Positions 1-4,741 of a DNA stretch of 64,000 nucleotides are shown here, in pieces. Below the pieces are notes generated by a model. That model saw nothing but the letters and a program-made list of their open reading frames with translations. It had not been told where the DNA came from and ran no database searches. Source of the DNA: Granulibacter bethesdensis (lineage in GTDB: Bacteria; Pseudomonadota; Alphaproteobacteria; Acetobacterales; Acetobacteraceae); NCBI RefSeq assembly GCF_001889545.1, contig NZ_CP018194.1, forward strand, positions 2,553,501-2,617,500, written 5' to 3'. Numbering within the stretch: position 1 is the stretch's first letter; every line of letters starts with the position of its first letter. Made by a program: the position numbers and the translations under genes.

Positions 1-132
1 ATCGAAATGCGCCGCCATACCGCCCGGCACCGCATCCGCTTCATAGACGGTAACATCATGACCGGCTTTGACCGCATGATAGGCCGCCGCCAATCCCATG
101 GCACCTGCACCGACAACTGCAACACGTGCCAT
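1..132 (-). CDS. FAD/NAD(P)-binding oxidoreductase, N-terminal fragment
   Basis: Only the first 44 codons are inside the window; the gene continues past the left edge. The ATG lies at 130-132 and the peptide opens with a dinucleotide-binding beta-alpha-beta fold: VAVVGAGAMGLAAAYHA (GxGxxG), then an acidic VYEAD at the end of strand 2 and a GGMA segment. This is typical of amine-oxidase or phytoene-desaturase-like flavoproteins. It begins 3 bases after the stop of the upstream epimerase gene, so it should belong to the same leftward operon as the DprE-like genes. The substrate cannot be told from the fragment. Confidence 0.75.
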   Translation of the reverse strand, partial: MARVAVVGAGAMGLAAAYHAVKAGHDVTVYEADAVPGGMAAHFD

Positions 133-135
133 CTC

Positions 136-1071
136 TCAGAACTCCAGAGCAATCTGCGCATAGGTCGGATCGCGGAAGGTCACCTCCAACGCCTTGCTCA
201 AGGGCGTTGGATGCACCCCGAAAATACCGGGCCAGTCGATGACTTCAAAAATATCCGGCGTCACCAGAGCCTTCAACTGGCTGGCGGTAAAAGGCGGATT
301 GCTGTTCACCAGCGCATAGATCTTGAGCAACAGCCAGAACAGGCCATAAGGAATCGTCACGATCCGCGCCTTTGCGCCCGTAGCTGTTTTTACGGCACGC
401 ATCAGGTCGATATAGTCGATACGCTCCAGCCCGGTGATGTTGAAAGCAGAGCCATGATGCGGTTTCTCAAGACAGGCACTGATGATGTCACAAAAATCAC
501 CGACAAATAGCGGTTGGCGCAGATAGCGCCCATTCCCCGGAATCGGGAAAACCGGCACTTTTTTCATGAAACGGGCCAGCCAGCCCAGATGCTTCCGATC
601 GAACCAGCCGAACATCAGGGTCGGGCGCAAAATAGTGACAGGCAGGCCGCTTTCGACAACCAGCTTTTCCTGTGCCTTTTTCGATTCCGTGTAAAAATCC
701 CGTGCGGCGGAATTCACCACCGACGAGGAAATATGCACGACATTGCTGATTCCTGCTTTTTGAGCGGCAGCAATGACCTTCTCTGTCGCCGTGATATTAT
801 TGGCGATAAAAGGCTCCTCCGTCAGGGCACCGATCTGAGCATGATTCAGCACCAGCGCATCCGCACCTGAAAAAGCATCCTGCCACGGCCCATCTTTTGA
901 AAGATCAGCCTCAATGACGTCGATCCCGGGATGCAGCTTGCGCAGCAACGCGGTATTGGACGGATGCTTGTCGATGGCAATGATCCGGCCAGCCTGGCGG
1001 GCCACCAGACGCTGAATCAGATTTTGTCCCACCAGACCGGCGGCTCCGGTGACGATAATCGTCCGTGTCAT
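136..1071 (-). CDS. Extended SDR, NAD-dependent epimerase/dehydratase family
   Basis: A 311-residue protein. The N-terminal GAAGLVGQNL is the extended-SDR nucleotide-binding motif (GxxGxxG), and YTESK supplies the YxxxK catalytic pair, preceded by a serine-rich SSSVV strand. The family acts on nucleotide sugars, sterols or isoprenoid-linked sugars. I chose the ATG at 1071; a TTG two codons upstream is also possible and has an AAAGGGA Shine-Dalgarno-like stretch at better spacing. The gene follows the DprE2-like gene by 17 bases and precedes the FAD oxidoreductase by 3, so it is probably co-transcribed with a lipid-linked sugar pathway. The substrate is not identifiable. Confidence 0.8.
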   Translation of the reverse strand: MTRTIIVTGAAGLVGQNLIQRLVARQAGRIIAIDKHPSNTALLRKLHPGIDVIEADLSKDGPWQDAFSGADALVLNHAQIGALTEEPFIANNITATEKVIAAAQKAGISNVVHISSSVVNSAARDFYTESKKAQEKLVVESGLPVTILRPTLMFGWFDRKHLGWLARFMKKVPVFPIPGNGRYLRQPLFVGDFCDIISACLEKPHHGSAFNITGLERIDYIDLMRAVKTATGAKARIVTIPYGLFWLLLKIYALVNSNPPFTASQLKALVTPDIFEVIDWPGIFGVHPTPLSKALEVTFRDPTYAQIALEF

Positions 1072-1088: not shown

Positions 1089-1832
1089 TTACAGGCGGGT
1101 CTTGTGGAAAATACGGGCAGGTACCGAACGGATAACCAACATGATCAAACGCCAGAATCCCGGTGCATAAACAATGGTCCTGCCGTTTTCTGCAGCACCT
1201 GCAATGATTTTTCCAAGCTGCTCTGCACTGGCCCAGAGCGGTCCTTTGGAAAAGCCTGCCGTCATTGGCGTATCAACAAAACCCGGTTTGATGAGAACAG
1301 CGCGGGCACCGCTGCGAGCAAGCCGATGGGCAATACCCTGCACCAGCACCCCAAGCCCTGCTTTCGCAGCGCCATAGACATAGTTCGACTGCCGTCCCCG
1401 ATCCCCAGCCACCGAGCCGATGACAACCAGGCTACCGAATGTCTGCTTCTCAAGCAGATTGGACGCTGCCTGACACCACAAGGCAGCACTGACAAAATTC
1501 ACCTGCAGCAGATCGACCAAAGCAGTCGGGTTCCGCTCCAGCATTGTCTGATCACCGAGCACTCCATAAGCGAGCAGCACGATATCCAGCCCACCAAACC
1601 GGGCCGCAATGTCATCGAGCGCGGCAACAGACTCCGCCTTTGCACAGTCGCAGGAAACCGTCACGATTTCGGAGGCTCCCCGCGTGGCCAGATCATCGGC
1701 AATCACGGCCAGACGCCCCTCATCACGGGCAAGCAGCCCGATACGGGCGCCCTGCGCCGCCCAGAGACGCGCCGCTTCCTGTGCCATGGCAGAGGTTGCG
1801 CCCAAAATCAGAATCCGCTTGGGCGCTCTCAT
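1089..1832 (-). CDS. SDR reductase, DprE2-like (decaprenylphosphoryl-2-keto-ribose reductase type)
   Basis: A classical short-chain dehydrogenase of 247 residues. GATSAMAQEAAR at the N-terminus matches the DprE2 style of GATSxIG..A, and YGAAK is the catalytic YxxxK. In mycobacteria DprE2 reduces the keto intermediate made by DprE1, completing epimerisation of polyprenyl-phospho-ribose to the arabinose form. The call rests on the sequence and on the ATGA overlap (4 bases) with the DprE1-like gene immediately upstream, which implies translational coupling. A generic SDR role cannot be excluded from the sequence alone, but the pairing makes DprE2 function the best explanation. Confidence 0.8.
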   Translation of the reverse strand: MRAPKRILILGATSAMAQEAARLWAAQGARIGLLARDEGRLAVIADDLATRGASEIVTVSCDCAKAESVAALDDIAARFGGLDIVLLAYGVLGDQTMLERNPTALVDLLQVNFVSAALWCQAASNLLEKQTFGSLVVIGSVAGDRGRQSNYVYGAAKAGLGVLVQGIAHRLARSGARAVLIKPGFVDTPMTAGFSKGPLWASAEQLGKIIAGAAENGRTIVYAPGFWRLIMLVIRSVPARIFHKTRL

Positions 1833-3169
1833 TGCGACACACGCTGCCAGAAACTGGACGTCATGACCGGATCCTTGTGAGGAAGAAATTGATCGAGCCG
1901 GGGAAAAGACTGTCTGAACATGCTGGCGCTCATCCGCCCGTCTTTCGCCGGGTAGAGCGCCCCGCCCGCTTCCCGGACGATCTCATCCAGCCGCAGCAAA
2001 GTGGCCAAAGTCCCGGCGCCACGGAAGGGAAAATCCAGCGCCAGAGTGGCACCGGGGCGAGGAAACGATAACAGCCCTGGTGAGACTTTCTCACCGAACG
2101 TCTTGAGCACGGCGAGAAAAGACGCCTCCCCGCTGCTTGCGATGGCATCCAGCAGCACGGGCATAGCCGCACGGGCGGTCTCGAACGGAATGACGCATTG
2201 ATATTGCAGCATGCCGCGCGCGCCATACAGCCGGTTCCAGTTGCGGATGGCATCAAGCGGATAAAAATGCTGGCTGTAATGCTGGACCTGTTTTCCGGCT
2301 TTGCGTTGATGGGCGCGGTAGTACAATGCGTTGAAGGCATGCACGCTGAAGCGATTCAGGGCGAAACCGGGTGCATCCAGCGGAATGGATTTCCAGCTGC
2401 GATCATCATGCGGGTCAAGCCGTCCATCCCGCCGCCAGTTGGCGCGCGTGAAGATGCCGCGGCCTGCATGCGGGCCACGTGCCAGGCAATCAATCCAGGC
2501 CACAGTATGTTCGAAACCGCCTGCGCTCTCGGACGCCAGATCCCAGAAAGCATCGATATTCTCATAAGGGATGGTTTCCACATCCAGCCACGCGCTGGCA
2601 ATCGGGGAGAGCTGCAATTCCACCCATTCGATCACCCCTGTCAGGCCAAGCCCCCCGAGCGTCGCCGCAAACAGCCCATTATCACCTCTGGCATCGAGCA
2701 CACGCCGCTCTCCGTTGCCTCGCAAAAGACCGAGCGCACGCACAGAGCAACCGAAAGAACCGGCAGAATGGTGATTTTTGCCATGCACATCATTGGCAAC
2801 CGCGCCACCGAGCGTCACGAACCGCGTGCCGGGGCTGGTCGCGGTAAACCAGCCCTTTGGCACAATGAAGCGTAGCAGATCGGACAGACTCATGCCGGCA
2901 TCAGCCCGCACAATCCCGTTTTGTGCATCGAAATGGATAAACCGGTTCAGCCCGGTCATATCGATCAGGCGACCGCCCGCATTCAGCGGCGTATCACCAT
3001 AGGAGCGGCGTAACCCGATCGCCAGCAGACTGGAACTGTCACTTTCCGGTCCTGTCAGACCGGACAAATCGGCAGGAAAGGCCGGTCGGGCGACATAATG
3101 CGGCTCACGAACCACACGCCCCCAGGAGCAGATATCCGTCCGAAGCGTGAAAGGGGAAGCAGCCATCAT
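1829..3169 (-). CDS. FAD-dependent oxidase, DprE1-like (decaprenylphosphoryl-ribose 2'-epimerase subunit 1 type)
   Basis: A 446-residue vanillyl-alcohol-oxidase-fold flavoprotein. DVHGKNHHSAGSFG (residues 127-140) is almost identical to the mycobacterial DprE1 segment containing His132 and Lys134. Further matches are an LQYQCVIP segment near 321 and YPAKDGR (406-412), which carries the lysine equivalent to Lys418. The aligned position of Cys387, the residue that covalent benzothiazinones attack in mycobacteria, is alanine here (Ala377 in PGATLALDF). The gene overlaps the HAD-UbiA gene by one base (TGATG) and the DprE2-like gene by four. Expected role: oxidise the 2'-hydroxyl of polyprenyl-phospho-ribose at the inner membrane. 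Confidence 0.85.
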   Translation of the reverse strand: MMAASPFTLRTDICSWGRVVREPHYVARPAFPADLSGLTGPESDSSSLLAIGLRRSYGDTPLNAGGRLIDMTGLNRFIHFDAQNGIVRADAGMSLSDLLRFIVPKGWFTATSPGTRFVTLGGAVANDVHGKNHHSAGSFGCSVRALGLLRGNGERRVLDARGDNGLFAATLGGLGLTGVIEWVELQLSPIASAWLDVETIPYENIDAFWDLASESAGGFEHTVAWIDCLARGPHAGRGIFTRANWRRDGRLDPHDDRSWKSIPLDAPGFALNRFSVHAFNALYYRAHQRKAGKQVQHYSQHFYPLDAIRNWNRLYGARGMLQYQCVIPFETARAAMPVLLDAIASSGEASFLAVLKTFGEKVSPGLLSFPRPGATLALDFPFRGAGTLATLLRLDEIVREAGGALYPAKDGRMSASMFRQSFPRLDQFLPHKDPVMTSSFWQRVSQ

Positions 3170-4623
3170 CAGACCGGCACAATGGCAGCCACAAACAGGG
3201 CTATTGCGGTCGCGCCATAGAATAGTGACACACGATCCTTCAAAGCAAAGGCGACAGGATCATCCTGCAGTTCCTGACGTTGGCACAACAGCCAGATGCG
3301 GCCCAGGAACAGAAAAATGATCATGGGAAAACCCCATAACATGGCGGGGTGACGATAAAAACTGGCCTGAAACGCTTCGTCGATCAGATACAGCACCATG
3401 ATCGCGACCGCCCCCATGCTGGAAGCCACACCGAGCGCCAGAATCAGCGGCGCATCCCCGGCCAGGTAGCCACGTCCGAGCACTTTCCGGTGACCATGCT
3501 GCACCATGCGCATCACCTCGGTATGTCGCTTCACCAGCGACAGGGAGAGGAAAATAAACATGGAAAACACCAGCAGCCATGGTGCCAATGCAACACCGGT
3601 CACCACCTGCCCCAGCACAAGCCTCATTGTAAACATGCCAGCCAGTAGCAGCACATCGACGATCGGCTCACGCTTGAATTTATAGGAATAAGCAAGGCTC
3701 AGGGCCAGATAAATGGCAAGAGTCACGATAGCACCGACACCGTCGGCAGCGGCAAACAGCAGAGCGGCCAATCCACAGAGCATCAGCAGGAACAGGCCGT
3801 CATCCAGGGGCAATTGCCCACTGGCGAGCGGACGCTTTTTCTTTGACCAGTGGCGACGGTCCTCAGCCAGATCCCACATGTCATTGGCAATATATGTGCC
3901 TGAAGCAAGCAGCCCCATCGCTATGAAGGCCAGTATTGCCGCCCCCCACGCATGGGCCGAAAAAATTTGTCCCCCCAGCACCAGCGGCACAAAAACCAGT
4001 GCGTTTTTGGCCCATTGATGAAGCCGCGCCGCCCGCCGGAGCACATTCGCGCGTTGGCCGGAAGGGCGGATATGGGCTAGCACGGGCGTATCAGGCTGAA
4101 CCTTGCTTCTGAGGCGCTTGCCGCGTTCAACGATGACAGCAGCCCGGGCAGAGCGCCACACATGCAGATCCGCTTCGGAATCACCCGCATAGATGAAACC
4201 ATTGGGATAATGGCTTGTCAGAGCAGCAGCCTTGGCCGCTCCCTTGAGGTTGCCCCGATCATCAGAGGCCAGAATCTCCGAAATAAAAGGAAACCGGGCG
4301 CTTATTTTCTCCGCGATAGCCCGATTGGCAGCCGTTGCCAGGACAATTTTACGTCCCCTCGCCGCCTCCCGCTCCGCCAGCTCAATGATACCGGGCGTCG
4401 CAGGAAGCGCATCGATATCCTCCTGGGTCAGTACCTCGGCAAAGCGCTGCTTGAACTGCGCACGACCGGCCATCACCCACAGCGGAAGCCTGACAAGATC
4501 AGAAGGGGTATTTTTCAGATGTTGCAGCAGAGATTCATGCAGTGAATCAGTGGCAATGAGTGTTCCATCAAGGTCAAGTACAAGAGGAATTGAAATATCC
4601 TGATCCAAGTAAGCCTCTTGCAT
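3169..4623 (-). CDS. HAD phosphatase-UbiA prenyltransferase fusion (DPPR-synthase/NoeC-like)
   Basis: About 484 residues from the ATG at 4623; a GTG at 4641 is an alternative start, and neither has a clear ribosome-binding site. Residues 15-165 form a HAD domain with all its motifs: DLDGT (17-21), a threonine in LATAA, a lysine in NLKG and GDSEAD (147-152). The rest is a polytopic UbiA domain with ND-MWD-LAEDR (from 247), RPLASG (264-269) and a second polar loop. The closest known UbiA types are mycobacterial 5-phosphoribosyl-1-diphosphate:decaprenyl-phosphate phosphoribosyltransferase and rhizobial NoeC. The HAD half could remove the 5-phosphate of the product. It is the first gene of the operon. 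Confidence 0.85.
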   Translation of the reverse strand: MQEAYLDQDISIPLVLDLDGTLIATDSLHESLLQHLKNTPSDLVRLPLWVMAGRAQFKQRFAEVLTQEDIDALPATPGIIELAEREAARGRKIVLATAANRAIAEKISARFPFISEILASDDRGNLKGAAKAAALTSHYPNGFIYAGDSEADLHVWRSARAAVIVERGKRLRSKVQPDTPVLAHIRPSGQRANVLRRAARLHQWAKNALVFVPLVLGGQIFSAHAWGAAILAFIAMGLLASGTYIANDMWDLAEDRRHWSKKKRPLASGQLPLDDGLFLLMLCGLAALLFAAADGVGAIVTLAIYLALSLAYSYKFKREPIVDVLLLAGMFTMRLVLGQVVTGVALAPWLLVFSMFIFLSLSLVKRHTEVMRMVQHGHRKVLGRGYLAGDAPLILALGVASSMGAVAIMVLYLIDEAFQASFYRHPAMLWGFPMIIFLFLGRIWLLCQRQELQDDPVAFALKDRVSLFYGATAIALFVAAIVPV

Positions 4624-4741
4624 TGAAATATACGAACCCACGGAATTTTTCAGGCAAACCTGTCCGGCAGCATTCTAAACCTGCCCGTTATCCAGTGGAA
4701 GCGACGCCTGTCACAGAAACCGCCGCATGCCACGCATTATG

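Follow-up and report, generated by a model that had tools for sequence, protein, structure and literature searches.

In the closest described systems, pentofuranose residues reach surface glycans from polyprenyl-phosphate-linked donors. ORF15 of Citrobacter youngae O1, an N-terminal HAD phosphatase fused to a UbiA-type synthase and characterised in 2024, converts phosphoribosyl pyrophosphate (PRPP) into farnesyl-phosphate-ribofuranose; its HAD aspartate D18 serves the removal of the 5-phosphate, with some activity left in the D18A variant (PMC11127046). The C. youngae locus leads to ribofuranose in O1 or to PRPP-derived xylofuranose in O2, where the single short-chain dehydrogenase/reductase (SDR) ORF13 turns ribofuranose into xylofuranose, and it also holds a MATE flippase and GT136 (PMC11127046). 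The mycobacterial pathway to decaprenylphosphoryl arabinose (Rv3806c, Rv3807c, DprE1 and DprE2) and the pilin arabinosylation systems of Pseudomonas aeruginosa and Pseudomonas syringae, Gram-negative bacteria with a PPPRS and a predicted arabinofuranose donor, are further counterparts (PMC11127046). Here we describe an operon of six genes at the left edge of a 64,000-nt stretch of Granulibacter bethesdensis DNA (contig NZ_CP018194.1; the whole stretch is called the window), which probably directs the synthesis and export of a polyprenyl-phosphate-linked pentofuranose donor for lipopolysaccharide (LPS) or another glycan.

The operon and its relation to known pathways

The genes are given below in the direction of reading. 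Coordinates beyond the left edge of the window refer to L004, a longer stretch fetched for this region.

3169..4623, minus strand: HAD-UbiA fusion (P0001) with HAD and UbiA Pfam domains, PRK08238 family, residues matching those of C. youngae ORF15
1829..3169, minus strand: DprE1-like FAD oxidase (P0002), 446 aa, FAD_binding_4, predicted 2'-oxidation of a lipid-linked pentofuranose
1089..1832, minus strand: DprE2-like SDR reductase (P0003), 247 aa, adh_short, YxxxK read in the translation
136..1071, minus strand: SDRe (P0004), an extended NAD-dependent SDR with GxxGxxG and YxxxK, distantly related to NDUFA9- and HpnA-type proteins
1..132 in the window, whole gene L004:16329-17633, minus strand: FADox, a PRK07233-type flavoprotein of 434 aa, amine oxidase/HpnE/protoporphyrinogen oxidase superfamily
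L004:15916-16332, outside the window, minus strand: GtrA-type flippase, 138 aa, Pfam GtrA 63.4 bits

A first-pass annotation of this DNA had read the first three as overlapping genes, which the open reading frames and Pfam matches bear out: in the sequence, the HAD-UbiA and DprE1-like genes share one base (TGATG) and the DprE1-like and DprE2-like genes share four (ATGA). The fusion more likely starts at the ATG at 4623 (484 aa) than at the GTG at 4641. The pathway was also called complete with these three, a description that does not hold, as three more genes of the operon (SDRe, FADox and GtrA) lie past 1089 and no transferase was found. The FADox and GtrA genes overlap by 4 bases; the operon ends with GtrA, and the next gene lies on the opposite strand.

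P0001 matched the PRK08238 model with 604 bits (curated cut-off 351), including its architecture of N-terminal HAD and C-terminal UbiA domains; both Pfam domains were matched in this one protein (HAD 45.5 bits, about residues 21-160; UbiA 68.1 bits, about residues 198-475). The residues that we take to be the HAD motifs are all present (D23/D25, T103, K137, G153-D154 and D158 in P0001 numbering, which exceeds the numbering from the ATG at 4623 by 6). In the profile comparison the UbiA domain sided with DPPR synthases. Models of decaprenyl-phosphate phosphoribosyltransferase (PRK12324) ranked second in NCBIfam with 141, 132 and 82 bits, followed by an unnamed prenyltransferase model with 54 bits, whereas no named enzyme of quinone, tocopherol or heme synthesis exceeded 27 bits; the solved mycobacterial enzyme (PDB 8j8j) was matched at E=1.8e-19. 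Counted from the ATG, N247, D248, D251, D255, R366 and E369 bear identical numbers in the HAD-UbiA fusion and in ORF15, and the HAD nucleophile aspartate is residue 17 here and 18 in ORF15; the active-site residues tested in ORF15 are thus conserved (PMC11127046). Assignment of P0001 as a predicted polyprenyl phosphoribofuranose synthase with a phosphatase domain, of the ORF15 type, is therefore well supported by homology. The proposal that the HAD domain supplies the phosphatase agrees with the role of this domain in its homologue ORF15 (PMC11127046). Phosphatase and prenyltransferase are fused as had been claimed, but neither the fusion nor the formation of a lipid-linked pentofuranose from PRPP with HAD as phosphatase is new, both being known from the same work (PMC11127046).

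Grouping of the UbiA domain with quinone or heme enzymes had been named as the outcome that would contradict this assignment. The profile scores speak against such a grouping, and the tree left the position of the domain open: P0001 and the Bosea sequence were joined with support 99/99, deep forks stayed open, and the genome's own CtaB and UbiA sat on branches of about 10, placed weakly among different fusion rows.

P0002 matched the DprE1 structure 4aut at E=1e-76 over 419 residues and keeps the flavin motif HGKNHHSAGSFG, and P0003 scored 251 bits against PRK07102 (cut-off 267). DprE1 and DprE2 are the best-fitting named functions and the proteins are homologous to them; since both scores lie under the curated equivalog cut-offs (given below), the proteins are called DprE1-like and DprE2-like here, and epimerisation at C2 by the pair is likely but not certain. 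DprE1/E2 homologues in arabinofuranose systems have been described before (PMC11127046).

Compared with C. youngae, the operon has DprE1/E2-like proteins, SDRe and FADox, contains GtrA instead of the MATE flippase and lacks a linked transferase. SDRe has TGxxGxxG and YxxxK, motifs named in the work on C. youngae (PMC11127046). It shares a homologous synthase, oxidase and reductase with the mycobacterial pathway, but differs in its phosphatase, an HAD fusion where Rv3807c is unrelated to that family (PMC11127046), and in the two extra redox enzymes and GtrA. The phosphatase, N-terminal here, is a separate protein in P. aeruginosa and a C-terminal PRP domain in P. syringae (PMC11127046). Of the three-component pentofuranose glycosylation system, the lipid-donor synthase is present by sequence. 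Synthesis of lipid-linked pentofuranose from PRPP would thereby extend to Granulibacter, a genus known for infections in chronic granulomatous disease.

Conservation and distribution of the cassette

All six genes are present in the three congeneric genomes (this genome, G000, together with G386 and G442). The dN/dS values of the G000 genes against the other two were 0.03-0.12; all six genes are under purifying selection between G000 and its two congeners.

Beyond the genus, at least 439 stretches with HAD-UbiA relatives were confirmed among genome contigs and 80 were kept as named loci, all of which match from residue 31 or earlier to residue 469 or later and thus through both domains. Among plasmids, 97 records matched, and in 81 the match spans 80% of the protein or more. 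The distribution is patchy: 22 of 289 genomes of the class had a match at E<=1e-30, some via the UbiA part only; three genomes of the same family appear by name in the class list, and none of them matched at this threshold. Among the 80 loci, HAD-UbiA stood alone in 40, with DprE1 and DprE2 in 22, with DprE1 only in 6, and with all of DprE1, DprE2, SDRe and FADox in 12; many of these stretches end at contig edges, so the counts are lower bounds. Within the score limits applied, SDRe and FADox always occurred together and with DprE1 and DprE2 (12/12), and GtrA was found in every one of these five-gene loci, three of whose own GtrA proteins had served as queries. The six genes are consecutive, as in G. 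bethesdensis, in Bosea sp. 117, Xanthomonas albilineans, Roseateles and Lysobacter, and most other five-gene loci have a multi-transmembrane gene or GtrA interposed. Four annotated plasmids (Agrobacterium, Rhodobacteraceae, Burkholderia and Rhizobium), drawn from the 8 plasmid records with FADox, all carried these six genes in unchanged order.

FADox was found at E<=1e-60 in 11 of 249 genomes of the family, the three congeners included, and SDRe adjoined it in 10 of 10 given loci. Wider stretches from eight family genomes with FADox contained SDRe, FADox and GtrA in all eight, HAD-UbiA and DprE1 in six and DprE2 in five, at the limits used. In a sample of 349 genomes of the phylum, PRK07233 was matched at E<=1e-80 in nine. 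Besides G000, six of the eight carry the whole set of six genes (L183 among them is apparently the same Acidovorax strain as L040); in L182 the sequence begins at a contig edge, with SDRe-FADox-GtrA, and in L181 there is just a remote FADox. PRK07233 also passed its cut-off in the archaeal control genomes of Haloferax volcanii and Methanosarcina acetivorans, and the flavoprotein family thus exists in archaea too.

Recurrent in Proteobacteria and on plasmids, the cassette of six genes is a new variant and brings in two uncharacterised redox enzymes, SDRe and FADox. Our literature search found no paper joining lyxofuranose with polyprenyl, nor one combining annotated gene names of the cassette; the cassette itself may figure in the supplement of PMC11127046, and for Xanthomonas, that paper mentions "multiple candidate epimerases or GT-Cs" (PMC11127046).

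Some further loci were seen along the way. The trio SDRe-FADox-GtrA was found at L151:7435-10148 and L157:9604-12211 without pentose genes in the stretch, and may be a separable module. Plasmids of nodule rhizobia (Devosia, Mesorhizobium, Sinorhizobium fredii NGR234 and others) also carry HAD-UbiA genes, which are perhaps tied to the arabinosylation of Nod factors. In an alphaproteobacterial metagenome-assembled genome, a UDP-xylose synthase-like gene (L037:13071-14027) is separated by 1.6 kb from a HAD-UbiA gene that is accompanied by DprE1/E2 homologues.

The predicted pentose and possible roles of SDRe and FADox

Taken together, the operon probably works as follows. HAD-UbiA would act like C. 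youngae ORF15 and convert PRPP into a lipid-linked pentofuranose with HAD as the phosphatase, as the matching residues suggest. The DprE1-like protein would then oxidise C2 and the DprE2-like protein re-reduce it, as is known for the mycobacterial homologues. SDRe and FADox, a second pair of SDR and flavoprotein, could conceivably modify the lipid-linked sugar once more, possibly at C3. GtrA, to judge from its family, would flip the donor to the periplasm, where an unlinked transferase would place the sugar on LPS or another glycan.

Several results weigh against this reading. P0002 reached 363 bits against the DprE1 model NF053785 and P0003 187 bits against the DprE2 model NF053786, below the equivalog cut-offs of 500 and 250. 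No match to HAD-UbiA, DprE1 or DprE2 was found at E<0.01 in the L151 and L157 stretches, and at L181:8386-11741 a remote relative of FADox (32% identity) occurs without the other cassette genes, near what looks by eye like the gene of a GtrB-like polyprenyl-phosphate glycosyltransferase. The trio alone in L151 and L157 and the remote FADox alone in L181 suggest that SDRe and FADox may serve another step. Two candidate transferase families linked to the cassette elsewhere (A2 and A5, see below) were sought in the three congeners and not found.

The first-pass annotation had expected D-arabinofuranose on a surface glycan, an expectation that the published LPS composition does not support. For the type strain of G. 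bethesdensis, the LPS was reported to contain "predominantly Rha, Glc, Xyl, Hep", analysed as trimethylsilyl methyl glycosides, and arabinose is mentioned a single time, as 4-amino-L-arabinose in the discussion of ArnT (PMC8036547). Such an analysis does not tell the ring form, and other glycans or sugars from the medium may have contributed to it. The bulk of the LPS appeared to be a rhamnose-glucose polymer (PMC8036547), and xylose may accordingly belong to the core or be a minor constituent. Probing with UDP-xylose synthase gave no match at E<=1e-10 in G000, G386 and G442, so xylose in the genus seems to need another source. This absence is not peculiar to Granulibacter: among 60 genomes, 24 had matches above 200 bits, and no match was obtained in 27, namely the three congeners and 24 of the 57 other relatives. 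Nine of 19 PF01370 matches were scanned with NCBIfam; five were named, none of them as UDP-xylose synthase, and four gave no match at 1e-40, which is not proof of absence. One of these four, L115, is nearest to CDP-tyvelose 2-epimerase (1e-35), with UDP-xylose synthase structures at 4e-23. With xylose and no arabinose reported in the LPS and no UDP-xylose synthase matched, the final pentofuranose may be other than arabinofuranose.

A plain polyprenyl-phosphate-D-arabinofuranose, with SDRe and FADox as accessory proteins or acting on a different sugar within that glycan, is nevertheless quite possible, although we tend to doubt it. It is the product expected from the best-fitting named functions of the DprE1-like and DprE2-like proteins, whose homologues are tied to arabinofuranose glycans (PMC11127046), and 22 of the 80 loci have DprE1 and DprE2 without SDRe and FADox, many of the stretches ending at contig edges. 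The published sugars (PMC8036547) and the tight linkage of SDRe, FADox and GtrA to the cassette argue against it.

Alternatively, SDRe and FADox could form a second oxidase/reductase pair that inverts C3. The donor would then be xylofuranose if the final reduction at C2 takes the other face, and otherwise lyxofuranose, with C2 and C3 inverted, a sugar reported to occur in no solved carbohydrate structure (PMC11127046). We regard this as rather unlikely, even though it would explain LPS xylose (PMC8036547) without UDP-xylose in three congeners devoid of matches to a synthase that exceeds 200 bits in 24 of 60 genomes. FADox and SDRe parallel DprE1 and DprE2 as a flavoprotein and SDR pair, and in C. 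youngae O2 a single SDR performs the conversion of ribofuranose to xylofuranose (PMC11127046). Yet SDRe shares no more than about 23-28% identity with other SDRs next to HAD-UbiA genes, 27 of the 60 genomes, the congeners among them, have no synthase match, and the cassette-bearing genome G291 has a UDP-xylose synthase as well. The xylose could also stem from the medium or from another SDR such as L115; its ring form is not given by the composition, and SDRe and FADox sometimes occur without pentose genes nearby. That the cassette makes a non-arabinose pentofuranose (xylo- or lyxo-) through a FADox/SDRe epimerase pair, and that this is the source of Granulibacter LPS xylose without UDP-xylose, is correspondingly doubtful. 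If true, bacteria would make xylo- or lyxofuranose by a second DprE1/E2-like pair, and PRK07233, named "hypothetical protein" in NCBIfam, would gain a function.

The same two enzymes might instead act on the polyprenyl carrier, for example by saturating it, which we consider improbable but keep as a live rival because HpnE is the nearest named profile of FADox. In the NCBIfam ranking of FADox, PRK07233 comes first and HpnE next (85 bits), followed by uncharacterised PRK07208 models and then by phytoene desaturases (42 bits). The occurrence of PRK07233 in the two archaeal genomes and the position of the L181 protein beside a GtrB-like synthase (by eye) fit an action on the carrier. The best solved relative of FADox, however, is protoporphyrinogen oxidase (3lov) and not a lipid enzyme, and the SDRe/FADox pair accompanies pentose genes in 12 of 12 named loci and in six of the eight other phylum-sample genomes.

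It is extremely improbable that the UbiA domain is a quinone or heme prenyltransferase in a cluster unrelated to pentoses: the shared UbiA fold and the deep branches left open in the tree would permit it, but such an identity of P0001 was rejected on the profile scores and the 8j8j match, and the genome has two more UbiA-family genes, which read by eye as CtaB and UbiA.

Candidate transferases and further observations

A search for a GT-C arabinosyltransferase beyond the left edge of the window had been proposed; there the operon ends with GtrA and no transferase is linked. No GT-C transferase was found in the operon; GT136 itself was not searched for. Two PMT_2 proteins elsewhere in the genome read as ArnT-like, one of them adjoining a polyprenyl-phosphate glycosyltransferase-like gene (by eye), and there is no case for either as the transferase of the cassette. 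G000 holds three GtrA genes, one of which stands apart in a 15.5-kb stretch in which no transferase-like gene was seen by eye.

In other genomes, two families of multi-transmembrane proteins are linked to the cassette, with these examples:

L057:15610-17388: A2 family, members of 577-727 aa
L155:3203-5500: A5 family, members of 657-917 aa, the longest starts probably overlong

Pfam and PDB yielded no convincing match for either family. Judged by topology and by an acidic motif near the N-terminus, A2 and A5 are putative GT-C enzymes and hence candidate pentofuranosyltransferases. One or both occur in eight of the 12 named five-gene stretches (nine if a partly similar protein in L045 is counted) and in three of the four plasmid stretches. 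Matches to A2 came from G330, G486, Bosea, Methylovulum and Pseudohongiella, and none from G464 and G291; in the Bosea copies the region of the match contains a stop codon. For A5, G463 gave a match and G330, G460 and Bosea gave none. An A2-family match also lies close to the SDRe-FADox-GtrA trio in L151.

Two observations on G. bethesdensis stand apart from the cassette. KdsC, reported to have no obvious representative in this species (PMC8036547), reached only 24-28 bits in the three congeners, against a curated cut-off of 107. Siderophore synthases of the IucA/IucC type, of which two genes have been reported in G. bethesdensis (PMC8776678), occurred in five of the 150 family genomes searched; G442, which may lie outside this sample, is not one of the five, and G000 and G386 have two each.

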